Below are positions 1 to 21,766 of a stretch of DNA of 22,619 nucleotides, piece by piece; positions within the stretch are counted from its first letter, which is position 1; the number at the start of each line of letters is the position of its first letter. The stretch is from a virus. The position numbers and the translations under genes are program-made. Where the stretch lies: the IMG/VR virus record IMGVR_UViG_3300042507_003480, positions 1-22,619 of that record, one strand, 5' to 3'. The notes below the pieces were generated by a model. It was not told the DNA's origin. It made no database searches and worked only from the letters and a program-made list of their open reading frames with translations.

Positions 1-153
1 TCCTGTATAATCATTTAAATCACCACAGGTAGTTTGGTTATTTGTAAAGAATGGTAAACTTATAGGATTAGCAACAGCTCCTGCACATGTATTAGATCCT
101 TGTGAATATACTTTAGTATATATAAATAATATAATTAAAACATACTTAAACAT
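1..153 (-). CDS. Secreted protein, N-terminal fragment (gene runs off left edge)
   Basis: This is the 5' end of a gene reading off the left edge; 51 codons are visible, all open. The ATG at 153 is the first start after an in-frame TAA at 183-181. The product begins MFKYVLIILFIYTKVYSQ, a textbook Sec signal peptide: one basic residue, a hydrophobic core at about 4-12, and probable cleavage after YSQ. The mature part begins GSNTCAGAVANPISLPF and goes on to a TCG..NDYTG segment. I know that C.GA...L...-type start, followed by a T.CG..NDY motif, from extracellular Bacteroidota proteins with PPC-like or adhesin-like beta-sandwich domains; the match is by eye only. It lies 23 bases after the last beta-solenoid gene and on the same strand, so it is probably the next gene of the fibre cassette. 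A signal peptide is unusual for a virion protein. It may be a lysogeny or superinfection factor, an exported adhesin, or a domain acquired from the host. Confidence 0.6.
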   Translation of the reverse strand, partial: MFKYVLIILFIYTKVYSQGSNTCAGAVANPISLPFFTNNQTTCGDLNDYTG

Positions 154-176: not shown

Positions 177-2156
177 TTAATTAACGAATGTGTAAGCAAG
201 AGTACCTGGAGGGGAGCCTGGATTCCAGTTAATAGTATCTGTTAATACTCCACCAAAACTCCACACAGTTTGCCCTTGTGAAGAGTCTATTCTTGTGCCA
301 TTAACATATATCAATGATTGGGATGCTCCTTGGTCTAATGTCCATATAGCTCTTACAGTTCCACTACTTGATGTCATTGTAGTTCTTGCAGTACTTGTGC
401 CACCTGTAATAAATGCTTGTAGTCTTGTTCTGTATGTAACAGCTTGCTGTAGTGTTACAGTAAATGTACCTGCTGCTGTAGAAACTAAGTTTGCACAATC
501 CCATCCAGCAGTTCCCGCAAAGGTTGCAGAACCATTCAAAGTAAGGTTATTTAATATTGAAAGAGGTTGATTAATTGTAAGAGTTGCACCTGCATTTATA
601 GTCAAACTATTCCAAGACATACCTACACTTGAAGTATTTAATATTGTTGTTCCCAATGTTAAAGTTGCTGTATGGTTGATTGCTCCTGATGTCCAGGTAA
701 TTCCACCTGTTCCTGTGTATATAAAATTATTAGGAATATTTAATGTGCCTCCTGTTCTTTCAAATGCAATACCAAATAATGATATTGTAGTCCCAGCATT
801 AACTGTCCATGTAGCATTCGATGAGCCAATAAATCTTAATGTAGCAGTTCCTGTAGTGTTATTCATAGGTCCGACGTTTCCTCCTACATATAATGAAAAT
901 CCTGCACCGTTCAGATTATCTCCACTTGATGTAGTTCCTATTGTTTGAAAATATACATTAGACAATAGTGTTACTATTCTTGTTACCCCACCCGTATTCT
1001 GAAGAGTTCCCCATGAATTGGTAGAGCCATTCATATTTATTGATGTAGCATTATAATTTAATATATGTGTTGTTGTTGTAAAGGTTCCACTATTTGTTGC
1101 AAGATAGTTTATTGTACAATTTGTGTATGTTGTTGATGATGCAAAAACAACATTTCTATTTGAGCAATTAATTTCTAAGTTGATATTATTTAATGAGAAT
1201 GTTGTAAGCGTAGCTGTTCCTGTAGAAAGAGCTGTTACGGTTATTTTTCTTCCAGACGTGCTATTTGAAACTGTTCCACCTGAACAGTTTCCTCCAATAG
1301 TGATATCAAATGCTCCGTTAAAAGCGGTGCTTCCGGTCATCGTAAAATTGTTTGTAACATTAATGTTTGATTGCATTGTTACAGTAGTATTAGTACCACC
1401 CGTGAACGATAAATTATAGAAACTATTAGTTCCCATATTTACTGTAATTGTTCCTGATGGTAATGATACAGTCTGTAAATTTGGAGTAAATGTTCCCAAA
1501 TTACAGGTAAATGTGCTATTACCAATAAAAGATAATCCTCCATTTAAAGAAAGCGTAGACCCAGAAGTTAGATTTAAAGCTCCTGTAAAGGCAATTGAAG
1601 ATGAAACAGATGTTGAACCAACTATAGTTAAAGTAACATTAGCTGCTGCTATAAGAGTCCCTGCCCATGAATTACCAATAGTTCCGTTATCTACATTCAA
1701 TAATACGCCAGAAGCAGCAGTAACTGTTGTAGGATTTGAACCTATTTTTGAAAGATTAGTTATTGTTGTTGTTCTTGACAGAGTTATTGTTTGAGTAACG
1801 CTTGCAGAAAATAATAAATTAGGAACAGTAACTCCAGTTGCTACATCAATAGTTGCTGTATTAGCTGAAACTATTATGTTTGCCAATCCAGAAATATGCC
1901 CAACTGTACTGCCTAAAGTTACATTACCAGCAACTGTTAGTGTACCTGCAGTAGATGCACCAATTGTTAATGTTCCAGTGTACCCAGTAGTCGTTAGCGT
2001 TAAGCAGTTTCTTGCAGTAGTACCAGTAGTACAATTAGCAGCATTGTTAAATGTTACAGTATCCCCAACACCAGGGCCCCCTGCTGGCGCAGCTGGGGAC
2101 CAATTAGAGCCTGTCCCCCAATCTGATGTTGTTCCTACCCAAGTATATGCTGCCAT
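177..2156 (-). CDS. Beta-solenoid adhesin/tail-fibre-like protein, paralogue 1 (659 aa)
   Basis: The protein is very rich in Thr, Asn, Gly and Ser, with short alternating strands such as GTLTI..S..GTLTV.GNVTL, as expected of a right-handed beta-solenoid. The N-terminus (residues 5-40) has a TWVGTTSDWGTGSNWS segment followed by P...GDTVTFNN, a pattern seen in extracellular and phage beta-helix proteins. Residues 551-659 form a separate C-terminal domain: GW.CANL, AIWTLDQGASQS, IDSSQGQT.WSFGG, NWNPG and a final TFVN. The upstream neighbour (2175-3785) has the same C-terminal domain, so the two are tandem paralogues. The start ATG at 2156 is 18 bases after the previous stop. No signal peptide, membrane segment or recognisable catalytic site is visible, so I infer a binding rather than enzymatic role, most likely a fibre or spike tip that contacts host surface glycans. 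A depolymerase with a cryptic active site cannot be excluded. Confidence 0.7.
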   Translation of the reverse strand: MAAYTWVGTTSDWGTGSNWSPAAPAGGPGVGDTVTFNNAANCTTGTTARNCLTLTTTGYTGTLTIGASTAGTLTVAGNVTLGSTVGHISGLANIIVSANTATIDVATGVTVPNLLFSASVTQTITLSRTTTITNLSKIGSNPTTVTAASGVLLNVDNGTIGNSWAGTLIAAANVTLTIVGSTSVSSSIAFTGALNLTSGSTLSLNGGLSFIGNSTFTCNLGTFTPNLQTVSLPSGTITVNMGTNSFYNLSFTGGTNTTVTMQSNINVTNNFTMTGSTAFNGAFDITIGGNCSGGTVSNSTSGRKITVTALSTGTATLTTFSLNNINLEINCSNRNVVFASSTTYTNCTINYLATNSGTFTTTTHILNYNATSINMNGSTNSWGTLQNTGGVTRIVTLLSNVYFQTIGTTSSGDNLNGAGFSLYVGGNVGPMNNTTGTATLRFIGSSNATWTVNAGTTISLFGIAFERTGGTLNIPNNFIYTGTGGITWTSGAINHTATLTLGTTILNTSSVGMSWNSLTINAGATLTINQPLSILNNLTLNGSATFAGTAGWDCANLVSTAAGTFTVTLQQAVTYRTRLQAFITGGTSTARTTMTSSSGTVRAIWTLDQGASQSLIYVNGTRIDSSQGQTVWSFGGVLTDTINWNPGSPPGTLAYTFVN

Positions 2157-2174
2157 TACTAAATAATTTTATTA

Positions 2175-3785
2175 TTAATTAACAAATGTTATCCCCTGTG
2201 TTTCAGGTTTTGTTCCTGGATTCCAATTTAGTGTTGAAGGGTCAATACCATTTGTTGTTCCTTGAAAAGACCATATTGTTTGACCTAACGAACTATCTAT
2301 TGCTGTTGCACTTACATAAACCATTGATTGAGTTGCACCATTAACTAAAGTCCAAATAGCTAAGTCATAAGGTATTGTTAAATCGCTTGACCTCATAAGT
2401 ATTCTTGAAGCATTACTACCTAACATATTCACAGATGTAGTTGTGGTATATGTAACTAAGCTTTGTAGTGTTATTATTCTACCTGCTGTTATGCATATTA
2501 AATTAGCACAAGTCCAACCTGCTGTTCCATCAAATGTTACATTATTTGTAGCTGCTATAGTCAAATTGTTCTGAATAATGTTAGCTACATTTTGTGTTAT
2601 TGTTGATAGTCCTAGAATTGTTAAATTCCAAAATGTCATATTGTTTATTGTGCAATTATTATTCACAGAAATCGTAATAGTAGATGTTCCTAAATTTAAT
2701 ATGCCGCTTGTGTAATTTAAAGTTCCTCCTGTTTGACCATAAGTAAAAGAGTTAAGTGTAAGAGTTGCTAAAGCGTTTTTATTTATATTTAAACTATTAT
2801 TTAAGATAAGAATTGTTATAGATGCATTTGTTGAACCTATCAATTCAATAGAAGCTGTTCCTGTTAATCTTTGTGTAGCACCTGTTATACTACCACCTAA
2901 ATATAATTTATAAGCAGCGCCATTCATCGCATTAGTACCTGCATTACCAGTAAATGTCATATTATTAGTAACATAAACATCTGAGTTAAGTGTAATACTT
3001 TGACCGCTAAGTGAACCATACCAATCAAATGCAAAAAAAGCTCTACTGATATTTCCCCAATTATTAAATACACTATTATTGAATCCACAACCTAATGTAG
3101 CTGTTGAATTAAATGTACCACTTGTATATGTAAAAACTATTCCGTTAAATAATAATGTTCCATTATGAGATATTACACCTGATGTATTAATTTCAAGAGT
3201 ACCTCCACCTGTAGTACCTAATGCACCCGACAAATTTCCAGTGCCTGACATTCTTATAGTTATGTTAGTAATAGTCAATGTACTAGTAAAACTTCCTTGT
3301 ACACTTATGATTCTAACTCCACCACTTCCTGTAATTGTATAATTATTTGCACCTGTCCTTGACAACGAGCCTACAACAGTCCAATTGTCTGCGATAGTGC
3401 CAGTAAGACTAAAAGTAAATGGGGCAAATTCTAAACCTCCGCTTAATTGTACTCCGTTTGATGTTAAAGTACTTGTTCCTGTTATTATAAGATTAGCTGT
3501 TCCAGTGGTAGTCATACCTGCTGAAAAGGTTACATTGCCTCTAACACTTAAACCATTTGTAAATGTTATTTGACCTGTATATCCTGTACAAGTAACTGAA
3601 GTGCAAGCTGATGCAACATTTATGGTTACATTAGATGAGTTAGCATCAAATATTACAGGGTCGGCAGTAGCAGAACTTGGAAATGTACCTGTATTAGTTG
3701 ATGATGTTGAACCAACAGTTGACCAACTTGTAGCCAAATTCCAATTTGCTGTTCCAGTATTATCTCTCTTGTAATAGGTTGGCAT
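2175..3785 (-). CDS. Beta-solenoid adhesin/tail-fibre-like protein, paralogue 2 (536 aa)
   Basis: This Thr/Asn/Ser/Gly-rich protein shares its architecture with the next gene (177-2156). It has an N-terminal W.LATSWS..G segment and PVIFD..S..VTI strand, a long body of short beta-strand repeats, and the same C-terminal domain at about residues 423-536. That domain shows GWTCANL, ILMRSS, AIWTLVNGATQSM.YV, IDSSLGQTIWSFQG, NWNPG and a final TFVN. The bodies differ much more than the C-terminal domain, as expected of fibres whose ends are conserved while the middle diversifies. Its ATG at 3785 overlaps the TAA of the upstream 80-residue gene by one base (TAATG), so translation is probably coupled. 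I infer a role in host attachment as a trimeric or monomeric solenoid. No catalytic residues can be assigned. Confidence 0.7.
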   Translation of the reverse strand: MPTYYKRDNTGTANWNLATSWSTVGSTSSTNTGTFPSSATADPVIFDANSSNVTINVASACTSVTCTGYTGQITFTNGLSVRGNVTFSAGMTTTGTANLIITGTSTLTSNGVQLSGGLEFAPFTFSLTGTIADNWTVVGSLSRTGANNYTITGSGGVRIISVQGSFTSTLTITNITIRMSGTGNLSGALGTTGGGTLEINTSGVISHNGTLLFNGIVFTYTSGTFNSTATLGCGFNNSVFNNWGNISRAFFAFDWYGSLSGQSITLNSDVYVTNNMTFTGNAGTNAMNGAAYKLYLGGSITGATQRLTGTASIELIGSTNASITILILNNSLNINKNALATLTLNSFTYGQTGGTLNYTSGILNLGTSTITISVNNNCTINNMTFWNLTILGLSTITQNVANIIQNNLTIAATNNVTFDGTAGWTCANLICITAGRIITLQSLVTYTTTTSVNMLGSNASRILMRSSDLTIPYDLAIWTLVNGATQSMVYVSATAIDSSLGQTIWSFQGTTNGIDPSTLNWNPGTKPETQGITFVN

Positions 3786-4027: not shown

Positions 4028-4701
4028 GTTTTTGTAATTGATATTGTTAAGTTTACCCAACTAACTGTAGTAACACCTGATATGGTAAATCCTATCCAAT
4101 CCCCTGCTGTAACAGTTGCTTGAGAGCCTACATATGTTGGAGTTAGGTTTTGATTTTTTTGCTGAGATGATAATGCAGGTTGTACAGTATATATATTATC
4201 AGAAGGTGTTAATGGTGGAAAATTAGCATATGTATCTTTAAATACAGTTACAGTACAACTACCTGATGTATTAGCAACTAATGTCCAACTTGTTAGTGTT
4301 CCATTATATGGCACTTGAACATAGGCTGTTTTACCATTGCTTATTGTTCCTCCCTGACCATCAAATGTAACACCGCAAGAACCTATTCTTAAATTTGTTT
4401 TTAAAGTAGATGCTACAGATTCACTTGGAGTTGTTGCTGGACCTGCTGTTACATCACCAGTTAATTCACCTATTGAATTACCACCACCTCCACCATATTG
4501 AGGAATATTTAGTGTAGCACCTATTAATGTAGCAGCACCACTTGTTCCTGTTGTAGTTAGTGTAAGAGTATCTTGTTTAGTATTAAGACCAGTATCTACA
4601 TAGTCCTTAATAGCCTTTTGGGAAGGAACAACAAGATCACTATCTAATGATAAGTTAGGGTCTGTATCTATTGGTGTACCTCTTGTAAATCCCTGTGCCA
4701 T
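4024..4701 (-). CDS. Tail-fibre protein with SQKAIKDYVD linker and C-terminal beta-sandwich (225 aa)
   Basis: The N-terminal third carries motifs common in phage fibre proteins: LVVPSQKAIKDYVDTGLN at about residues 23-40, followed by LTTTGTSGAATLIGATLNIP (48-67) and a GGGGG hinge at about 70-74. The first forms a short trimerising helix and the second a beta-rich connector in such fibres. The rest (about 105-225) looks like a compact beta-sandwich often found at fibre tips, with FDGQGGTISNG, an AYVQVPYNGTLTSWTLVA stretch, a CTVTVFKDTY segment, and TAGDWIGFTISG near the end. I infer a receptor-contacting or accessory fibre. The start overlaps the upstream stop by one base (TAATG) and the stop overlaps the next start as ATGA. 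Confidence 0.8.
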   Translation of the reverse strand: MAQGFTRGTPIDTDPNLSLDSDLVVPSQKAIKDYVDTGLNTKQDTLTLTTTGTSGAATLIGATLNIPQYGGGGGNSIGELTGDVTAGPATTPSESVASTLKTNLRIGSCGVTFDGQGGTISNGKTAYVQVPYNGTLTSWTLVANTSGSCTVTVFKDTYANFPPLTPSDNIYTVQPALSSQQKNQNLTPTYVGSQATVTAGDWIGFTISGVTTVSWVNLTISITKT

Positions 4702-5948
4702 TATCTAATCTCTCTAAATTTAATTGATGCATAAACCGTTTGTGTACCACTTAATGAAGTAGCTTTTAACGTTAATGTGCCTAATGCTCTTGCTGCACCT
4801 GCTTGATTTAATGTAATTGGATACCTAGAAACAATTGCTGTATTAGTAACTCCTTTTGCACTACCTGATGATGCAACATATCCACCATCAATAACTACAG
4901 CAGGACTTCCGCTAAGAGTTCCTAGTATATTATATTCAGAACTGCTGTATGTGCTATTTACAGCATTATATGTAGTTGTTCCTGATATGGCTTGTCCTAT
5001 ACAAAGCTGCCATTGAATAGGCTGATTTCCTGCATTGTAAATCTCAACATCTATATATGCTACTCTTGTTCTATTAGTTATACCATTAAATGTTGTTCTG
5101 GGTCTAAGGCTTAACATATGAGTCCCACCTGTACCTACACTAATAGCTCCTGAGTCTTGTTGAAATGTATATCCAAATACATTTATATCTTCTGTACCAC
5201 CCTCTGAAATAACCGCAGAACAAATAAAGTTCATTGTAGTAGAAACTGTAGCAGTACAAGTCATTCCACATCTTACAGGAAGATTGGCTGATTGGATATA
5301 AGGTGAAGCAAAAAGGTTTGCATGAAGAAATTCGTGAGCATATATAATGTTTCCTCCAATATCAAATCCTATACGCACCCTTCCTACATACAAAGCCTGT
5401 ATATCAATAACAAGAATTTGAGTCTTAGTTATATCTAAAGTAAATCCACTTGCTCCTGTACCATCAAGCTTATCTAAGTTCCAAGAAGATTGGGTTACTG
5501 TTTCATTACCTGCTGATGATGCAGAGTAAATCACAAATTGCTTAGTAGTGCCATCAAGTTGAAACTCAATTCCATTGACTCCATCCGAATATCCTGCAAA
5601 CTTTAGCACATTAGCTACGGCAGCAATCATATTGAATGTTACAAATATTAGTTGTGACCTACCAGGCTGATAAGGCAGATACTCATAACTCTGCATATAA
5701 GCCTTTCCACCAGTTGGAGTGGAAGCAAATGTCATTAATGCGTATCTATTAGTAGCATCATGTGCAATTGTAGCTCCAATACCATTTGTTATTTGTTCTA
5801 GTATAATGGGAGCTAGGTCATAAGTAAGCTGAGAATTAAATAAAATAAGAGGGTTACTAACCCTTAGTCTGCTAAACGCATCAAGGTTTGCAGAGTCCTT
5901 TATTGATACCTCTGAATCAATAATATTATATGAAGCGTATCCCTGCAT
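4701..5948 (-). CDS. Virion structural protein of the DAF.RLRVSNP family (415 aa)
   Basis: I recognise this as a virion protein type widespread in environmental phages. Hallmarks in order: DAFSRLRVSNP (23-33), YLPYQPGRSQLIFVTF (90-105), an LDGTGASGFTLDITKTQI block (161-178), YVGRVRIGFDIGG (187-199), a HEFLHANL segment (205-212), NLPVRCGM (222-229) and ISEGG (247-251). Composition is beta-rich with no signal peptide or membrane helix. Its exact place in the virion is not established as far as I know. In this context, between small fibre-like genes, I infer a surface-exposed fibre or baseplate-type component, possibly a carbohydrate-binding beta-jelly-roll. Only one base separates it from the preceding gene and it overlaps the next by one base, so it sits in a translationally coupled run. 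Confidence 0.75.
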   Translation of the reverse strand: MQGYASYNIIDSEVSIKDSANLDAFSRLRVSNPLILFNSQLTYDLAPIILEQITNGIGATIAHDATNRYALMTFASTPTGGKAYMQSYEYLPYQPGRSQLIFVTFNMIAAVANVLKFAGYSDGVNGIEFQLDGTTKQFVIYSASSAGNETVTQSSWNLDKLDGTGASGFTLDITKTQILVIDIQALYVGRVRIGFDIGGNIIYAHEFLHANLFASPYIQSANLPVRCGMTCTATVSTTMNFICSAVISEGGTEDINVFGYTFQQDSGAISVGTGGTHMLSLRPRTTFNGITNRTRVAYIDVEIYNAGNQPIQWQLCIGQAISGTTTYNAVNSTYSSSEYNILGTLSGSPAVVIDGGYVASSGSAKGVTNTAIVSRYPITLNQAGAARALGTLTLKATSLSGTQTVYASIKFREIR

Positions 5949-9700: not shown

Positions 9701-10192
9701 TTCATCAACAAGTGCTTCTTCAATAGGTGATATTGTATCAGGTGTAAAACTACAATTTGATGTAAAATTAACATCATCTAATGTTAAAACATAAGGTAAA
9801 GTAGTATCTGGATCTATTAATGTAGAAAATTGAATAACTAACTTTTTATTATTACTATCAAAAAAATAAGTAAATGGATAATTAATATTATTAAAATACA
9901 TACCACCAGTATCATCACAACTAAACTGAATTTTAGCTTCAGTTAATTCTGATAAATCATTTAACAATACAGTATATTCTCCTTCAACACAACAAGTACA
10001 AGTAATTGTAGAACCTACTATTTTAAAGTTTTTAAGGATTTCTACATACTTTCTAAGTAACCTTGCTTCTTTTAAAAGACAAGTATTATTCTTACCTACT
10101 ATTAAACCTCCGTAATACTTAATTGTTTTTAAAGCTAAACTATAGTAAGCTTTAATTATTGACATCTGTATTTTTAATGGTGTTAGTATCAT
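6710..10192 (-). CDS. Giant repeat virion protein with about seven GG(V/I)D-type modules (1160 aa)
   Basis: The largest gene here. Residues 11-60 are predicted helical (LKEARLLRKYVEIL), followed by a cysteine cluster (TCTCC, 64-68). From about 160 on, the protein consists of divergent beta-rich modules. Most have an AP..TG..FNG..L.Y-type segment and then, about 15-30 residues later, an F(S)GG(V/I)D-type end. The GG ends lie near residues 255, 435, 526, 640, 826, 930 and 1107, and the FNG/YNG segments near 243, 412, 504, 612, 799, 893 and 1079. The last ~30 residues hold two Cys and a helix. The ATG at 10192 overlaps the upstream TGA as ATGA; an ATG at 10165 (MSIIKAYY) is the alternative. I infer a long fibre or appendage shaft. 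A baseplate or tail-tip role is possible. Function is not established. Confidence 0.7.
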   Translation of the reverse strand: MILTPLKIQMSIIKAYYSLALKTIKYYGGLIVGKNNTCLLKEARLLRKYVEILKNFKIVGSTITCTCCVEGEYTVLLNDLSELTEAKIQFSCDDTGGMYFNNINYPFTYFFDSNNKKLVIQFSTLIDPDTTLPYVLTLDDVNFTSNCSFTPDTISPIEEALVDEVTGIPVTVSNMYGDWSGNITIYSPPPGSTMLHTLTIPAAIMDDPEAIVNYWNTNGPTDWLLIYDGTQYTMLTPFDGTNYSGYIIEFNQYEGGVDSSILSTTFIPQNFVTISQTASVEIDIPDTFVGSVPAQALITPNVPDFVPNNTPAKVNITVAPNSFSTTHIASTMNISIDGGGAFGSSPPSNQYFYYNSTLMFSHIGPYANPAALVTDFNNNNGNGFTMTYIGPSPTPNHFLFEIESPLNTTLYNGNTITVAYNALPYPDDVGTFSGGVLPKPVDVTVSDTTNGTIYTITSPSFNSLQDFVNDFNTNAFGYVATIIPFAVSNNIQITAPISTGFAFNGTTLTYSTTGPTYSSTGTYFGGIDTTECTYTLELYDTGNVLFATIDNLTPTNYPGLADIAADINSNPLNTYLFYTAAAPVPITGGLGLSVQFPYPFALPQSLTCNTYNGYTFILTINYTSPQYTPYTSAASMMDGGINAESNEFVITDGINGTIFSQTTNNFNYPNGSEIQNGFIPDFNANNTGALPLLYTAEYVGPGNPTPDVQATVNNPFLTQLIGEGMSNGSEIRAFISNPNTTFIGIYQAPTTGILPSYNQMIINLSNNILSQNIVPGLTSIFTGSGILLTAPPNTGDAYNGYEFKVYKYDHTLATVSFTFTANSVGGTRFQFSAGPNLIANVVMGALPTYTPNDLAQSTVTAINAIGGSTGCSATRVGGTVTITAPPYTGGYFNGTNLGTFILPTSSGTVSINGNTYLPNNSYTISSFSGGSTNVVNLNAPPDDVYFAGGKTSISTSRVRFRSPVQPTTSPQYGTGNWVYNFTTLSYDYNLGEYLEINGYSDGIDPTVGELIVDILDTLLNPYAQLYIDLTPQNYQSRQLLVNAFNATNPFPNNFQINLVSPTSAFCNILSPPTSFDYFNNYTFKYSYFYVSPQYTDYVDVTTTFSGGVDPVLTPYEGEFQQGDIGTFVTDNPCEPIVVEQECLSNTDITNIINHIDRIVK

Positions 10193-11364
10193 ATTTTTTT
10201 CTTAACTGCTTTAACTTCATGATTAATAACTTCTATCATAGGACTAGCTTCATCATCTGCTGAAACAACAATATATTGGTTTATTAACCACCCACTAGAT
10301 ACTGCTGTTAAATTTGAAAGTGATGAACAAACATAACTATAGTCTATATTTTGTGTAAATAATGAAGCAGATGCATCTTGAACTGAAACATAGCATTCTG
10401 ATTTTGCTCTAAAACCAGTTCCAGATCCACCAACTCTTTCTATTTTAGAATTTATATGAATAAGAACTATATTTCCAGGAGCAGAGCTTATTGGTACTTG
10501 AAAATCTGCAGCAGTAGTTGCAATTGTTGCAGTATCATTAGGAGAAACTTTTATATAAATTCCTCTAACTGTAGATGTAGTAGGAGTTGCTTTTAAAACT
10601 ACTTGACATTCTAATATATTACCAACAGTATCTAATGTATTAGCAGGAACTAATATTGAAGCTTTTTTATCATTAATACCACCTGTACCAAGATAACTTC
10701 CCCATAAAGAATTTTGTACATATGCTAATTCAGAAGAAGCACCTACTGTTCCTGATGATTGTACTATAGAACCAGAAGGTACAACATTAAGATCACTAAT
10801 AAAAGTTACTCCAGGTATTATCCAATTTAATCTATATAAAATAGCATAATTAATTACACCAACAGAAAATATATTTGTAACTAAATAATAACCTCCAATG
10901 TCTGTTAATCCTGTAGGATTACCTACAAATACAACTTGATTAAAACTCATCCATGAGCTATCAGAAATTTCAATTGTTACTGTAGTATTAACTGCAGGTT
11001 GTATAAAAGTATTAGTAGTTAAAGTATAAGCATTATTACCATTAGATCCATTAACACCATTTGTTCCGTTAGAACCTGGTAATCCAGTAGATCCTGCTGG
11101 ACCTGTAGGACCAATTAAAGATGTACCTGAACCCCAAACACCTAATGTTTTAGGACCATAAATTGTGTCAGTTGTTGTATCAATATAATAATCACCATCA
11201 ACACCTTCTGTTGTTGGTGGTATTAATCCACTTAATATAGTATTTCCATTAGTACCATTAGTACCATTAGTGCCAGCACTTCCTTGTGGTCCTGGAGGTC
11301 CTGGAGGGCCTATTGGTCCTTGTGGACCCATTGGTAATTCTGAATTATAACAATTATTTGACAT
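10189..11364 (-). CDS. Collagen-like fibre protein 1 (391 aa)
   Basis: Two collagen Gly-X-Y tracts are visible: residues 13-40 (GPQGPIGPPGPPGPQG, then GTNG repeats) and 85-109 (GPTGPAGSTGLPGSNG, then N-rich triplets). A connector with GDYYIDTTTDTIYGPK and WGSGTSL separates them. This GDYY..T...I connector between collagen tracts is shared with the next gene upstream and common in phage and bacterial collagen-like proteins. From about 112 to the end the protein is beta-rich and ends basic (EVKAVKKKI), likely the globular fibre head. Collagen tracts form triple helices, so a homotrimeric fibre is expected. The N-terminus contains a single Cys (SNNCYNS). It starts two bases after the upstream stop and overlaps the 1160-residue gene by four bases (ATGA). 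Confidence 0.85.
   Translation of the reverse strand: MSNNCYNSELPMGPQGPIGPPGPPGPQGSAGTNGTNGTNGNTILSGLIPPTTEGVDGDYYIDTTTDTIYGPKTLGVWGSGTSLIGPTGPAGSTGLPGSNGTNGVNGSNGNNAYTLTTNTFIQPAVNTTVTIEISDSSWMSFNQVVFVGNPTGLTDIGGYYLVTNIFSVGVINYAILYRLNWIIPGVTFISDLNVVPSGSIVQSSGTVGASSELAYVQNSLWGSYLGTGGINDKKASILVPANTLDTVGNILECQVVLKATPTTSTVRGIYIKVSPNDTATIATTAADFQVPISSAPGNIVLIHINSKIERVGGSGTGFRAKSECYVSVQDASASLFTQNIDYSYVCSSLSNLTAVSSGWLINQYIVVSADDEASPMIEVINHEVKAVKKKI
11246..11272 (-). repeat. Three-copy 9-base tandem repeat in the collagen tract
   Basis: CCATTAGTR is repeated three times on the plus strand (11246-11272) and encodes consecutive Asn-Gly-Thr triplets in the collagen-like protein. The repeat unit is a multiple of three, so slippage would lengthen or shorten the triple helix without shifting the frame. 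Confidence 0.75.
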
Positions 11365-11366
11365 AA

Positions 11367-12152
11367 TTAATAATTAATAAAATCTACAAAAATACCATTA
11401 ACTAAAACAGCATTTTGAGTTGTTTGTTGAATTTGAATATTAATTGGATTTGTTACAGTAAAATCTAAACCATTAACTGTTGTTATATCAGTAAAATTAA
11501 TAGTTTGTAAAGTATCAAAATTACCTATTGAATTAAAGTTAGTATAACATCTTAATTGATTAGAGCTTATTCTAATCATTTCAATAGTATAAACACCACT
11601 TACATCAATATTACTTGGTGAATATGATAATGGTAAAAATCCTGGAAAAATAAAACCATTTGTTGTATTTTGAGAATCAAATAGTGCACTTATAAGTTGT
11701 GTGCTAGTAGTTGATGTATTAGTAAAATATATAGTAACTTTTAAAGCATCACCATTAATACTTAATTGATTAGCAGGAATTACTGCTGAAACTGGTAATG
11801 TAACAGGTGTATTTAACATTGTACTTGAATAAGTACCTGTATCAGATACTAATCTAATTATACCTGCAGGACCTGTTAAACCAGTTGGACCTTGAGGACC
11901 TGTTATATCTGCAATTAATACCCAAGTTGTATCAGAAACTTTTTGAAAAATTTCACCATTTGAAGTATTAAAATAATAGTCACCTACTACACCAATTAAT
12001 GATCCAGGTAATGTATTACCTTGATGCCATGTAGAACCATTAACACCTGGTAAACCTTGTGAACCTTGTGGACCTATATTTCCTTGTAGTCCTTGTGGAC
12101 CTCTTGGTATTGTTGCTGAGTTGCAATTACAATTGCCTGAACATGAACACAT
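11367..12152 (-). CDS. Collagen-like fibre protein 2 with Cys-rich N-terminus (261 aa)
   Basis: The N-terminus is MCSCSGNCNCNSATIPRG: four cysteines in the first ten residues. A collagen Gly-X-Y tract follows (GPQGLQGNIGPQGSQGLPG, about 18-36), then the same connector as in the neighbouring collagen-like gene (GDYYFNTSNGEIFQK), a short second tract (GPQGPTGLTGPAG, about 86-98) and a beta-rich C-terminal domain of about 160 residues. That domain has Ser/Thr/Asn-rich strands, as in other fibre heads. A triple-helical trimer is expected from the collagen tracts. The cysteines may staple the three chains or bind a metal. Its ATG at 12152 is 23 bases after the upstream stop; that gap is AT-only with no clear promoter. 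Confidence 0.85.
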   Translation of the reverse strand: MCSCSGNCNCNSATIPRGPQGLQGNIGPQGSQGLPGVNGSTWHQGNTLPGSLIGVVGDYYFNTSNGEIFQKVSDTTWVLIADITGPQGPTGLTGPAGIIRLVSDTGTYSSTMLNTPVTLPVSAVIPANQLSINGDALKVTIYFTNTSTTSTQLISALFDSQNTTNGFIFPGFLPLSYSPSNIDVSGVYTIEMIRISSNQLRCYTNFNSIGNFDTLQTINFTDITTVNGLDFTVTNPINIQIQQTTQNAVLVNGIFVDFINY

Positions 12153-15472: not shown

Positions 15473-16421
15473 AACCTGATTGCTCCTTTAGTCTTTCTAC
15501 AATAGCAAAATTATCAGGGTCTTCAATCCATTTAATAGCTTGACCTGTAGCACCAATATCTTTACCATCTAAAAACTGGTATGTTTTTTCTTTAGATAAA
15601 ACTAATGCACCTGATTTAACTGCTCTCATTAAAAGTAATTTTGAATCTTTGTGAGGATCTTGAACTAGTTTAAGGAAATTTGTAGGTGATTCATTAACAA
15701 TCTTACCCACATATGAAAACACATAGTCATAGTTTGTAGTATTTGTAATTCTTGAATCATATAACCACATTACTTCTTTAAGTTGTTCAATATCTGCCTT
15801 AATTCTAGCAAACCATGAGAAGGCTTCTAGTTTAGTATTAAGGTCTTCTTTTTCTTGTACTTCAGCTATCTCTTGATCTACAATCATAAATCTGTAAGTA
15901 CGTTTTTTATTCTTTTCAGCGGGAGAAGGTGCTACAACATTTTTATTCAGCATCAGGACCTTGTATTTAATCATGTCCATTGGATTAGAAAGATCTAAAA
16001 TGTTAGCCTCATTTCTTAACTTAACTGTACCCATTTTTTGCCAGAAAGTATCTGGATAACGGTTACCCTTTTCATCAGTTCTATATCTACTGACATCTAA
16101 TTCTCCTTTGTTAAGTCCAAGCATTCTTTCAAAAAACTCCTGCTCAGTAATTTCTTCATTTGGAAACTGAGAAGTTCTAACTTTTGTAATATTATCTAGT
16201 GGTCTATGTATAATACCTGTTTTTTTACTTACAGGTACTGATAGATAAGTAATTGCAGTATTAAACTGATAAGCACCATTAGTCTTATCTTTACCATCTT
16301 CAGTAATCTGATATTTATAAGACCAACTATTAGGTCTTACAACAGGTACTACTTTTACTACCTTTTCTATTAGAAAGTTTGTCAATGTTTCTGTTTCTAT
16401 TTCTATTGTCTTTTTAGCCAT
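15462..16421 (-). CDS. Conserved-looking post-capsid protein, probably head-associated (319 aa)
   Basis: The start is taken at ATG 16421 (MAKKTIEIETE). An upstream TTG at 16439 is in frame but lies inside a promoter-like box. The protein is highly charged and mixed alpha/beta: RPNSWSYKYQITEDG (about 29-43), a Gly/Lys/Arg-rich stretch with YRTDEKGNRYPDTFWQKMG, KKRTYRFMIVDQEI (about 173-186), a helical AEVQEKEDLNTKLEAFSWFA and helices to the end. I cannot name a family. Position directly after the capsid gene suggests an auxiliary or capsid-completion protein, or a cargo protein packaged in the head. No membrane segment, protease or nuclease motif is evident. Its stop overlaps the next start region by 11 bases. 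Confidence 0.6.
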   Translation of the reverse strand: MAKKTIEIETETLTNFLIEKVVKVVPVVRPNSWSYKYQITEDGKDKTNGAYQFNTAITYLSVPVSKKTGIIHRPLDNITKVRTSQFPNEEITEQEFFERMLGLNKGELDVSRYRTDEKGNRYPDTFWQKMGTVKLRNEANILDLSNPMDMIKYKVLMLNKNVVAPSPAEKNKKRTYRFMIVDQEIAEVQEKEDLNTKLEAFSWFARIKADIEQLKEVMWLYDSRITNTTNYDYVFSYVGKIVNESPTNFLKLVQDPHKDSKLLLMRAVKSGALVLSKEKTYQFLDGKDIGATGQAIKWIEDPDNFAIVERLKEQSGYDS

Positions 16422-16487: not shown

Positions 16488-17993
16488 TTATACTAAGTTA
16501 TAACGGAAGTCTACAACTTTAGTTGGGTCAGTAATCATCATACCACCCCACATCATTCTGTGAATTTCATATCCATCAGATCTAGATACTGCCAATGAAG
16601 GAGAACCTTTACCTGCAGGAGTGAAAGGATCACGCATACCTGGGATGTAACGGAATACTGAAGGTTGACCTTTAACAGATACACGCTTAATACCAGCTTC
16701 TCCACCAAAGTCAAGAGCAAGCATTCTACGAGATTCTGTAGTACCACCTTCTGGGTGAACTTCAGGGAACAATACTTTGTCATCAAACATTGGACAGTAC
16801 ATTAATTCAAATGTAATACCATTGATTGAGTAGTATTTAGTAAATTGGAAACCAGCAGAAAGTGATTTAGAAATACCATTTAGGTTTTTAGCACCTTCTT
16901 TGAATACAGTAGTATCTACTGATCTACCAGGACCACCAGCACCAATAAGTAATTCAGTACCACCTTTAGCAAGAACTGCTCTGTGGAAATCACGAATACC
17001 ATACTCACCAGTACACAAAGTAACAACCCTGTTACCCATTTCAATTCTACCAATAGAAAGATCCAAGAATACCTCAGTCAAGAAGTCAAGATCTAAAGTT
17101 GAGTAGTAGTGAATGTTAGAAGGAGCAATTTGTTCAAACAAACCAGCACCTGATTCCAAAGGATATTTTCCTGAAGCATCTTTGTTCAAGAAAAGATCTT
17201 TATCTGTGAAGTTATGTAGACCATAAAAGTGCATAATTACATTAGCAACTTCTGCTTGGTACATAGCAATCATATCAAGGTAGTTAATCCAAACTCTTTC
17301 TTGTTTACCATCTACACCTGGGAAAGTGAATTCCAAAGGATAGTTTTTACCTTCGTTAATCATGTTACCTGGAACTTCATATTCAAAACGCTGCATAGTA
17401 ATGCGGTTTCTCATTCTGAAAGGTGAAGTAAAGTTAGGCTTCTGACCTCTGTTAGAAAGGGTTGAAGGAGCTACGTTGAAAAACTTAGCCCATCTGCTTC
17501 CTGCTTCTAATTCTTCAGCAGGTACAGAAAGACTAGGATCTGAAGTAAGAAGTTCTACTTCATATTCAAAGTTAGTTCCTTTAGGTTTTACAGATACTAC
17601 ACGAAGTAAGTATTCTGCTTTGTTACCTTTAAGAATGTTATCTGGCTCAAAATATTCTTCACCAAATACTAAGTAAAAAGAAGCAATACCTGCTCCTAGT
17701 TCACCAGCTGTAGCTGCAGAAGTACCTGATGCATCATAGGCTTCTAGAAGAGGAATGTTTTTATCATGTTGACCTTGGAGCATCCACTCATAGAAGTTGT
17801 TTTCTTCAACTTCAATAGTAGGGAACTGATTGAGGAAATCAAACATCGCATTCTTCAAGTTAGTTCTGAAGATTTGATGAATGGTGTTAGTTACAAGCTG
17901 AGGACGCTTCATATAGAGAGCACCCAAGTTATTTGCAGTCACAAGACCATTGTAGTCTTTGGCTGCGTATTTTTGTAATTGAAATAATTGCAT
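16488..17993 (-). CDS. Major capsid protein, HK97 fold likely (501 aa)
   Basis: Assigned from position (terminase, portal, scaffold-like, capsid), length and composition. The length matches crAss-like major capsid proteins (about 500 residues). It begins MQLFQLQKYAAKDYNGLVTA and has a helical segment with LKNAMFDFLNQFP (about residues 46-58), an aromatic FYEWMLQGQHDKNIP block (about 67-81), VERF-like RITMQRFEYEVPGN (about 198-211), and a conserved-looking GRIEMGNRVVTLCTGEYG at about 312-329 followed by a RDFHRAVLAKG helix. The end has KVVDFRYNLV. No N-terminal protease delta domain is obvious, in line with the separate scaffold-like gene. A hairpin follows it. I have not compared it with any structure. 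Confidence 0.8.
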   Translation of the reverse strand: MQLFQLQKYAAKDYNGLVTANNLGALYMKRPQLVTNTIHQIFRTNLKNAMFDFLNQFPTIEVEENNFYEWMLQGQHDKNIPLLEAYDASGTSAATAGELGAGIASFYLVFGEEYFEPDNILKGNKAEYLLRVVSVKPKGTNFEYEVELLTSDPSLSVPAEELEAGSRWAKFFNVAPSTLSNRGQKPNFTSPFRMRNRITMQRFEYEVPGNMINEGKNYPLEFTFPGVDGKQERVWINYLDMIAMYQAEVANVIMHFYGLHNFTDKDLFLNKDASGKYPLESGAGLFEQIAPSNIHYYSTLDLDFLTEVFLDLSIGRIEMGNRVVTLCTGEYGIRDFHRAVLAKGGTELLIGAGGPGRSVDTTVFKEGAKNLNGISKSLSAGFQFTKYYSINGITFELMYCPMFDDKVLFPEVHPEGGTTESRRMLALDFGGEAGIKRVSVKGQPSVFRYIPGMRDPFTPAGKGSPSLAVSRSDGYEIHRMMWGGMMITDPTKVVDFRYNLV

Positions 17994-19230: not shown

Positions 19231-19258
19231 TAAGCTAACATTTCTATATAGCTTATTT
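19228..19258 (-). terminator. Terminator-like hairpin at the portal stop
   Basis: A perfect ten-base-pair inverted repeat (AAATAAGCTA with TAGCTTATTT; 19228-19237 and 19249-19258) encloses an 11-base loop. The portal stop codon TAA (19255-19253) lies inside the first arm on the transcribed strand. The downstream sequence GTTTAATAAAC is only moderately U-rich, so termination may be partial. The stem is AT-rich, which weakens it. On the plus strand the arm is followed by a T run (19256-19261). Confidence 0.5.
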
Positions 19259-21766
19259 TTTATCGTATTTATTCTTATTTTCTTTAGCAATCCTTAAAGC
19301 AGTATCAGCCTTCATCTTTTCAATCTGTTTTTTACTTTCAATTTCTTGTTTCTTTATTTCATTCTTTTGTTTTTCAATATCAGATTTTATTTGTAATTCT
19401 CTTTCCTTTTGAATCTGCTGATAAGTTGTTTTTTGTTGCTCTAATGCTAATTTACTTTGTTCAATTATATCAGATATTTGGTTTTTATTAATATCTTGAT
19501 CTTGTGCATAAGACATTGCCCTAATTGTTTCAAGTTGTATTTTATTTTCTCTATCCAATTGTCTGTTAACATCTTCTCTATTAAGTCTCTCCATTTCAAG
19601 TTGTAATTCTTGTGCTTTAAGCTGTGCTGCTTCAGCTGCCATTCTTTCTTGAGATTCTTGTTGCATTTGCTGCATTTGTTGTTGTTCTTGAGTAATCTTA
19701 TCTTGTGCTTCTTCCAAGTATCTAGCAAGAGCAGATATACTATCTTTTTTGTAAATCTCAATAAGATCTCTAAACTTAATCTGACCTGTCTGCATACCTG
19801 CATGTGCAAGTTGATTAAGTGCTTGCATCAGTTCTTGAGTATTTGGACCATCATCTATATGAATATCATATTCTGATTCTGAAAACTCATCATAGTAACT
19901 TACTATTTCAGCACCCATATCATCTAATACAAACTGTGCTTTATGTGGGTTTTTCTTCCATACATACTTAGCAACCTCTAATAATCTTTGCATACAATCT
20001 CTTTTAAATGAATTATGTAATGCAAAATACTTTTCAGTCATAGAGTTAGATGCTGTCCATCCCATGTTAGATGTACCTACATTAGAATCACCTCTAACAT
20101 CACCTTGTCTGTATTCATTAACTCCTGAAATTAAATCAAGTTGTTGTTTAACAAATGCTAATAGCTGAACATGCTGATTAATATAATTACCCATTTCAAG
20201 GTTAATACCTGTTGCAGTTAACTGATTATATGTACCTGCTGATTTACCTTGAAGAGGTCCTTTAAGTACCTCATTAGTAGGATCCATAAACATTACATTA
20301 GTAGCTTCTGCATACTGTAACCATTTGAGAGGATCCCACTCTGAAGGTATCATGCTAGTATTAATTGCTAACATTGGACCTTTATACTTAGCAATAGCTA
20401 AGTTTAATCTATGGAAGAATATATCATATAAGTAATCCATAGGTTTCATAACATCCATGAATGACATTACCCTTGAATTATTTGTATTACATAATACTCC
20501 TACATAAGGTGGTTTACTTTCTGATAAATTACTCATACTCCTTGACTGATAAGGAATAGGTCTAATTTTTACATAAATATCATTAGCAACTTTAGTACCT
20601 TCCCACCACTCATTAATCCATATCCATTCTACAGTTTCACCTGCATCTTTGTCAATCTTGTAGTATTCATCTACAATCTTTTCTTGTGGACTACCATATT
20701 CATCATAATAAGCTACTTTACCAATCTTTCTTCTAGATCTCCAACACACTCTCATAATTCTAACATTACCTCTTTGGTCATAAGCACCACCAAAGTAATG
20801 TGTAGCAATCTGATTAGGTACAAATAACTCACCTGCTGTATATCCAAATCTTTCTTCAACAGTAATATCTCTGTTGTAAGCCATTTGAATACCACCAGTT
20901 CTCATTGCATTGTACTCTTTACTTTGTTCAAGATTTGATATTTGTTCTTTAGTAAGTTCTAAATGGAACATATCAATAACTTGACCTACAGACATCATTG
21001 TATATTCTACAATCCAGTCTGCATCCTCTATTTTATAAGTCTCAGGTGATTGAATAGTAAACAAATACAGAGGATTTACTTTTCTAAACACAATATCATT
21101 TCCAAGTTCCTCTATACATACAACTTCCTCACCTGATATAAGAAAGTCTTCCCAACACCTCAAAAAGACATCTTGAACTTTTAACCTCTTATATTCATAT
21201 TTTAATATTTTATTTGCAGTAATTTCTTTAAGATCTTGATAGTTATATTTTAAATACTTATCAAACTTACTAAGTTCTTTCTGCATTTCTTCCTCCATTA
21301 CTTGAGGATCTATTTCTTGACCTTGAAAAGCAGCTTGAAGTTTAGATTGTGCTATTGATACCAATTTTTGGTACCACATATCTTTAATTTGCTCTTCTTT
21401 AGATGAAATACCCATTTGATCAGATGAAGATATAAATGCTCTAAAAGGGTATCTATTTAACCTTTTAGCTTCTTCACCTACTAAAGTATTTATCTTAGAA
21501 TTACCTAAACCAATATGCTGTATATCTTTAGGAAAGGATGAAAATTCAATACCATATGGTTCACATATAGCTTGAATATCCTTATTAGTTATCATATTAT
21601 TTCTCAATCTATAATTAACCTTCTTATTATAAAAGGTTTGTCTTACTACAGATGAGTCAAACATTAATACGTTTTCACCAGCATCAATACATTTCTTAGC
21701 CCACTCTAAGTTCTTTTCACCATCTGAGAGTGTTTGTCTTGGTACTTGTATTACTAAATTATTCAT
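19253..21766 (-). CDS. Portal protein with long Gln-rich coiled-coil tail (837 aa)
   Basis: Position after the terminase and before scaffold and capsid genes, plus size and layout, identify this as the portal, the dodecameric ring that forms the DNA entry channel of the head. The N-terminal two thirds are globular, with RLRNNMITNKDIQAICEPYG, WEDFLISGEEVVCIEELGN, a FVPNQIATHYFGGAYD region and LNLAIAKYKGPMLAINTSM. Residues about 679-837 are one long charged coiled coil rich in Gln, Glu and Lys (ITQEQQQMQQMQQESQER). Long portals of this type with Gln-rich C-termini occur in crAss-like phages. The start is ATG 21766, 15 bases after the terminase stop, and is preceded by a TAACTTTG box. Start choice is clear because MNNLVIQVPR is the first ATG after the box. 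Confidence 0.85.
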   Translation of the reverse strand: MNNLVIQVPRQTLSDGEKNLEWAKKCIDAGENVLMFDSSVVRQTFYNKKVNYRLRNNMITNKDIQAICEPYGIEFSSFPKDIQHIGLGNSKINTLVGEEAKRLNRYPFRAFISSSDQMGISSKEEQIKDMWYQKLVSIAQSKLQAAFQGQEIDPQVMEEEMQKELSKFDKYLKYNYQDLKEITANKILKYEYKRLKVQDVFLRCWEDFLISGEEVVCIEELGNDIVFRKVNPLYLFTIQSPETYKIEDADWIVEYTMMSVGQVIDMFHLELTKEQISNLEQSKEYNAMRTGGIQMAYNRDITVEERFGYTAGELFVPNQIATHYFGGAYDQRGNVRIMRVCWRSRRKIGKVAYYDEYGSPQEKIVDEYYKIDKDAGETVEWIWINEWWEGTKVANDIYVKIRPIPYQSRSMSNLSESKPPYVGVLCNTNNSRVMSFMDVMKPMDYLYDIFFHRLNLAIAKYKGPMLAINTSMIPSEWDPLKWLQYAEATNVMFMDPTNEVLKGPLQGKSAGTYNQLTATGINLEMGNYINQHVQLLAFVKQQLDLISGVNEYRQGDVRGDSNVGTSNMGWTASNSMTEKYFALHNSFKRDCMQRLLEVAKYVWKKNPHKAQFVLDDMGAEIVSYYDEFSESEYDIHIDDGPNTQELMQALNQLAHAGMQTGQIKFRDLIEIYKKDSISALARYLEEAQDKITQEQQQMQQMQQESQERMAAEAAQLKAQELQLEMERLNREDVNRQLDRENKIQLETIRAMSYAQDQDINKNQISDIIEQSKLALEQQKTTYQQIQKERELQIKSDIEKQKNEIKKQEIESKKQIEKMKADTALRIAKENKNKYDKK

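Follow-up and report, generated by a model that had tools for sequence, protein, structure and literature searches.

A candidate phage-encoded split T9SS type-B surface-display cassette with a head related to host adhesins

Introduction

Known phage superinfection-exclusion and other moron surface proteins are lipoproteins or inner-membrane proteins, and none is known to use the type IX secretion system (T9SS). Proteins with type-B C-terminal domains (CTDs) of this system are exported and anchored through PorP/SprF proteins (PMC9143113, PMC12618676). Phage-encoded T9SS cargo, carrying type A CTDs, has been described for 'Cryophage' (Bellas et al. 2020, PMC7468147), and de Jonge et al. (2019, PMC6949934) mention gut phages in which proteins with T9SS sorting domains are encoded next to BACON ORFs. 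In the open-access literature, to which our search was confined, we found no description of a split type-B cassette, its connector, a covarying tail, or a host-related head.

Here, we analyzed a complete IMG/VR virus record of 22,619 bases (22.6 kb; hereafter the window). An ORF on its minus strand (153→1) starts with an ATG at 153, encodes 51 aa, and remains open past base 1; as the window is the complete record, the ORF is truncated by the contig end. Sequence comparisons indicate that this ORF is probably the 5′ part of the gene for the 'head' protein in a split T9SS type-B surface-display cassette encoded by the phage.

Results

The terminase, portal, and major head proteins of the window match head-and-packaging PHROGs. 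The crAss-like portal protein (19253..21766, minus strand) is 90–92% identical in five other contigs (G001, G002, G003, G717, and G718) and 29–34% identical to many crAss-like records; a crAss-like major head protein (16488..17993, minus strand; phrog_11589) and a virion structural protein (4701..5948, minus strand; phrog_1645) were also annotated. By its portal, major head protein, and terminase, the contig is classed as a fragment of a crAss-like phage (Crassvirales). These genes, together with fibre-like genes upstream of the ORF, agree with its earlier placement at the end of a phage fibre cassette. A gap of 20-odd bp separates the head gene from its immediate upstream neighbour, which encodes a fibre-like, S/T/N/G-rich protein of 659 aa (177..2156, minus strand) in which no signal peptide was seen, and a second fibre-like protein of 536 aa is encoded at 2175..3785 (minus strand). 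The C-terminal region of the 659-aa protein is common to its 536-aa neighbour and to fibre genes of L030 and L020. In the window and in fibre genes of its relatives, this region ends in ..NWNPG..P.T...TFVN, and the two fibre ends are likely duplicated or recombining. Gly-x-Pro repeats mark two collagen-like fibre proteins encoded at 10189-12152; both match PF01391, the second with a score short of the curated cut-off.

The ORF had been described as carrying a clear export signal, and this was borne out. Positions 103..153 (minus strand) encode a predicted Sec (type I) signal peptide, MFKYVLIILFIYTKVYS, which has a hydrophobic core, no lipobox, and a cleavage site before Gln18 (between VYS and QGSNTC) that conforms to the Q-rule for signal cleavage sites in Bacteroidota (PMC10653852). 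The same N-terminus is kept in full-length relatives, in which M1 and Q18–C23 are invariant. The mature start (QGSNTC...; 1..102, minus strand) corresponds to the first part of a predicted N-terminal beta domain with homology to host adhesins.

Full-length relatives, which supply the missing part of the gene, were recovered from IMG/VR. Scanning with the 51 window residues gave 15 loci, most of them full-length, and a profile scan added more. Full-length heads are 449–455 aa and end in a short tail; the window thus holds the 5′ part (51 codons; 1..153, minus strand) of an exported adhesin-head gene of ~450 aa in relatives, with the remainder beyond the contig end. The nearest relatives occur in G001–G003, three crAss-like contigs of 58–93 kb whose portal is 91–92% identical to that of the window, and their head gene starts share 80–86% amino acid and 86–90% nucleotide identity with the window. 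Further heads were found in contractile-tail phages, namely T4-like records (L006–L016), a 128-kb record (L025/G019), and a 71-kb record (L027/G716). A tail sheath is present in G005, G007, G019, and G716 and was not found in G001–G003. In the T4-like records, the head gene is a lone antisense gene, flanked by a large tail sheath gene and a gene for a 347-aa product. Two of these records have unusually long tail sheath genes (L007:2154-5714 and L010:2475-5693; 1072–1186 aa) with a large insertion between two sheath parts.

The head matched no family in Pfam, NCBIfam, or PHROG, and no PADLOC model. A first AF2 model, built from 7 close sequences, was poor (pLDDT 47) and was left uninterpreted, and a second, built from 15 sequences including host and distant phage rows, reached a mean pLDDT of 78.8. 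This model predicts a signal helix, an N-terminal beta domain (~35–163), a jelly roll (~166–370), and an Ig-like domain (~380–440), where borders and names are our own reading of secondary structure and alignments. Foldseek returned only generic beta-sandwich matches, all of them partial, namely to CBM61, MAM-Ig, GH85 accessory domains, ColG collagen-binding domains, and GhpA fragments. The jelly roll is the most widespread part of the head: relatives, aligned mostly over residues 160–447, occur in 134/345 host-class genomes as well as among other phage genes (L058, L106, and L117). From the model and the alignments, there is a fair case that the head is an adhesin, perhaps PPC-like at its N-terminus. 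Both terms stem from a by-eye match in the preliminary description. The adhesin part held, with residues 5–446 sharing 61–67% identity with the N-terminal part of fused T9SS type-B adhesins from freshwater Bacteroidota MAGs; the PPC-like part found no Pfam match and agrees loosely with the partial Foldseek matches to ColG collagen-binding domains, CBM61, and MAM-Ig.

In G001–G003, the head gene is followed by genes for a 155-aa signal-bearing protein, a 186-aa PKD protein (the connector), and a 183–189-aa protein composed of a signal, an Ig-like domain, and a CHU_C type-B CTD (the CTD protein). In these closest relatives, the connector is ~187 aa and the CTD protein ~185 aa long, each with its own signal peptide. 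The 155-aa protein, located between head and connector in the crAss-like group (L002:7435-7902, also L003:7435-7902), had no Pfam, NCBIfam, or PHROG match and is absent from the 128-kb myovirus cassette.

A CTD-protein profile scan of IMG/VR detected 129 relatives; 80 of the 129 were kept, among them 50 split and 29 fused cases. The order variable head, connector, CTD recurs at 36 distinct split loci, in which connector and CTD genes often overlap by one base. Connectors from an independent scan had a CTD gene after them in 12/12 loci. PF13585 was matched by 32/32 CTD proteins at E≤1e-3, and PKD_6 by 21/29 connectors. The CTD protein P0009 scored above the curated cut-offs of both PF13585 (60.9 bits vs 27) and TIGR04131 (53.4 vs 35), and its PDB match was the CTD of the Aureispira grappling-hook protein GhpA. 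On these profile matches, the third cassette gene encodes a bona fide T9SS type-B CTD, and it is the cassette as a whole that qualifies as predicted type-B cargo. A C-terminal type IX sorting domain had been anticipated in the head itself; no CHU_C was found in full-length heads (449–455 aa), so the sorting domain is not in the same polypeptide, and in relatives it is encoded by a separate type-B gene two or three genes downstream.

A signal-like N-terminus with a Q-rule site, scored by a hydrophobicity rule rather than a dedicated predictor, was present in 27/28 heads, 28/30 connectors, and 29/32 CTD proteins, compared with 18/487 other ORFs of the same loci. A predicted Sec signal peptide with the Bacteroidota Q-rule is thus common to all three proteins, and the window ORF fits this pattern. 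If the head were instead a virion component, such as a tail-fibre or capsid decoration protein with a structural N-terminal helix, it would be in keeping with its adjoining fibre genes, with the generic phage fibre/CBM folds given by Foldseek, and with the virion association of Ig/PKD and BACON proteins in gut phages (PMC13370021). We regard this as very unlikely, given that all three cassette proteins bear a Q-rule signal, that a T9SS CTD has no evident use for a cytoplasmically assembled virion, and that the head is a single antisense gene in T4-like phages. With no PHROG match and a Q-rule signal, the head does not resemble a phage tail fibre or virion protein, and no virion domain, which the preliminary description would have taken as evidence against export, was seen in the full-length protein.

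The cassette differs in conservation among its parts: homology was detected in 630/630 pairs of CTD proteins, 499/561 pairs of connectors, and 135/465 pairs of heads. In two crAss-like records (L042 and L043) with a portal 90% identical, the 450-aa head is replaced by an unrelated 323-aa head (L042:3421-4389 and L043:3433-4389). By these comparisons, heads are variable and exchanged, and connector and CTD are conserved. We infer from its nearest relatives that the window's own phage carries connector and CTD genes. A stand-alone connector was found in 0/395 Bacteroidota genomes with a query that detects 8/11 phage records (positive control). No split cassette was found in the cultured phages of INPHARED, and all phages with a connector or CTD protein are uncultivated contigs.

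Several related arrangements were also observed. An 880-aa phage ORF (L117:2802-3947 and beyond) fuses a jelly-roll head domain, Ig repeats, and a type-B CTD. A fused SP-PKD-CHU_C protein of 650–820 aa is encoded in a further set of phages with contractile tails (L097, L101, L102, L105, L107, L108, L111–L113, and L115), directly after sheath-like (about 570 aa) and 162-aa tube-like genes, with the match around 5001-5414 where full length. One phage record, G026 (L075 and L078), holds both a split cassette and a fused 729-aa protein of the connector-CTD type. Connector and CTD genes lie side by side near 26968-27963 of LR745206.1, a 635-kb uncultured huge phage genome, and the cassette therefore reaches huge phages. 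In the 128-kb record, QueC-like, other queuosine-type, thioredoxin-like, and other metabolic genes accompany the cassette (by-eye reading), and a second short CHU_C match lies in a 61-aa frame at 16166-16339.

We then compared the head with host proteins. Two freshwater Bacteroidota MAGs (L033 and L034) encode T9SS type-B adhesins of 1641 and 1646 aa, in which the first 450 residues are 61–67% identical to phage heads over about 440 residues and the last 125 residues are a type-B CTD. The phage CTD protein is 31–36% identical to the last 125 residues of the 1641-aa adhesin. This host adhesin is present in 6/10 examined genomes of its order, and the phage heads are homologous to the SprB-like adhesin of the host order across its N-terminal head domains. 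Maximum-likelihood analysis places all 13 phage heads in a single clade (100/99), next to the adhesins of the host order. Within it, the crAss-like L002/L004/L005 heads group with those of L023 and L024 (100/99), with the crAss-like L003 outside; the gene neighbourhood of L023 is that of the sheathed 128-kb record. The phage head shares descent with the N-terminus of the fused host adhesin and is apparently a captured host adhesin head. The direction from host to phage is suggested because the domain is widespread in bacterial adhesins, and the simplest reading of the tree is one capture followed by exchange between unrelated phages.

The preliminary description had left open an exported phage product destined for the infected cell surface, a captured host gene, or the edge of a host chromosome. 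The first two hold together, considering the host-adhesin homology and the phage-head clade. The 61–67% identity to a host adhesin could also be expected if the contig end were host chromosome or an assembly chimera, an explanation to which we assign next to no probability and which we consider refuted. The same gene occupies the same site in several independent phage contigs, including the three crAss-like contigs of 58–93 kb with a 91–92% identical portal, and the phage heads group in a clade separate from the host protein, which extends about 1200 residues beyond the point at which they end.

Heads and connectors end in a conserved tail, I-x-H/T-N/D, which is mostly I-x-H-N/D and takes the form I-Y-T-N/D in the crAss-like group. 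The I-x-H-[ND] form ends 22/34 connectors and 18/31 heads, compared with 2/487 other ORFs and 0/32 CTD proteins. The last four residues of head and connector match within a phage far better than in shuffled pairs (p=5e-5) across 12 lineages, which are few and not fully independent; windows further upstream were mostly weak, and one control window (−24..−20) was also raised. Within-phage duplication was considered as a cause of this covariation and rejected, as heads resemble the connector of their own phage no more than they resemble other connectors (54 vs 56). By hhalign comparison (97.3%, E 2e-11), connector and CTD protein have homologous N-domains, and the connector N-domain profile matched 0/28 heads. 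In sequence, the proteins would fit a donor-strand (plug-and-socket) fibre, with a candidate donor tail on head and connector but not on the CTD protein, and a candidate acceptor N-domain on connector and CTD protein but not on the head. The simplest reading is a directed chain in which the head would be a plug, the connector a socket plus a plug, and the CTD protein a socket plus a secretion signal.

No CHU_C was found in head-only records (T4-like and some others), which are fragmentary, and the head may therefore not always need its own CTD gene. Acting alone, it might be secreted only to the periplasm or released, serving as a soluble decoy or blocker without a T9SS partner; the T4-like, 71-kb (L027), and L024 records, which have a head and neither connector nor CTD, would suit such a role. 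We consider this unlikely, since these records are fragments whose heads retain tails (VFTN, ILHD) as if a partner were still needed, whereas the crAss-like and 128-kb myovirus records combine head, connector, and CTD in one cassette.

No PorP/SprF shuttle was found in 22 phage records (0/22), and the putative host MAGs have 10 and 6 copies; the phage would therefore rely on host shuttles. In the proposed chain, the head tail would plug into the connector N-domain, and the connector tail would likewise plug into the CTD protein, whose N-domain is homologous; strand complementation might be the mechanism. The assembly would then cross the outer membrane via its CTD, carried by host SprA/SprF-type machinery, and the head would be displayed on the infected cell surface. 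We tentatively propose, at somewhat less than even confidence, a modular non-covalent surface fibre consisting of a variable head (plug), a connector (socket and plug, possibly polymerizing), and an anchor (socket and T9SS type-B signal). The host T9SS would export this fibre as a complex, with CTD-less proteins riding on their partner's CTD, and its head, here related to a host adhesin, might be swapped between phages.

Discussion

The most likely purpose of the cassette would be to alter the infected cell surface so that related phages are excluded, with the variable head masking the receptor. Such surface alteration fits because the delivery part is conserved and the extracellular head is variable and exchangeable. 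Of the probability shared among possible functions, we give a little under half to superinfection exclusion, our first choice; infected cells adhering or aggregating may come next and competition with the host's own adhesin third.

The cassette might alternatively be an envelope or lysis factor, with the exported proteins assisting lysis by opening the outer membrane or surface layer. Its surroundings lend this some weight, as lysozyme, M15 endolysin, and small membrane proteins are encoded around the crAss-like cassette, and the 128-kb myovirus cassette directly precedes an endolysin-like gene. A neighbourhood scan, however, found endolysin neighbours in only a few of 29 loci, and a lysis function is set back because most split loci are without them. 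The domains are also adhesin-like rather than enzymatic and the heads variable, leaving a lysis role quite improbable.

If the proposed display cassette is correct, phage proteins reshape the infected Bacteroidota surface via the phylum's own secretion system, in crAss-like and sheathed phages alike. T9SS cargo would then be deliverable in trans through a separate CTD protein, the cassette would offer a modular display system that is ready to use, and it would become possible to test for superinfection exclusion in crAss-like phages. The IxHN tail provides a simple sequence handle for finding more heads.

Like phage superinfection-exclusion and moron surface proteins, the head would be an exported phage protein that alters the infected cell surface. 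The Ig/BACON/PKD adhesins of gut phages (PMC13370021) resemble the present proteins in their beta-sandwich adhesin domains and in having crAss-like phages among their carriers. They are treated as virion-displayed, whereas the present proteins bring Sec signals together with partners bearing a T9SS CTD. The presence of T9SS sorting domains in phages of Bacteroidota is a point shared with de Jonge et al. (2019, PMC6949934); in the parts of that study considered here, fused or neighbouring ORFs are mentioned in passing, with no split cassette, connector, or tail.

SprB/SprF-type type-B adhesins (Gorasia 2022, PMC9143113; Paillat 2025, PMC12618676) have a comparable layout of signal peptide, extracellular repeats, and type-B CTD, are surface-anchored via PorP/SprF, and include a host member that shares the head. 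The host cargo is one large polypeptide whose shuttle is often encoded nearby, whereas the phage version is split in three and lacks a shuttle gene. Cryophage (PMC7468147) is similar in encoding phage proteins with T9SS sorting domains and variable cargo, for which superinfection exclusion was also proposed. Its CTDs, however, are of type A, reside on enzymes or a PA14 protein, and were described in one phage, whereas the present cassette occurs across many phage lineages and has its type B CTD on a separate protein, accompanied by a connector that is conserved and by heads that vary and bear tails.
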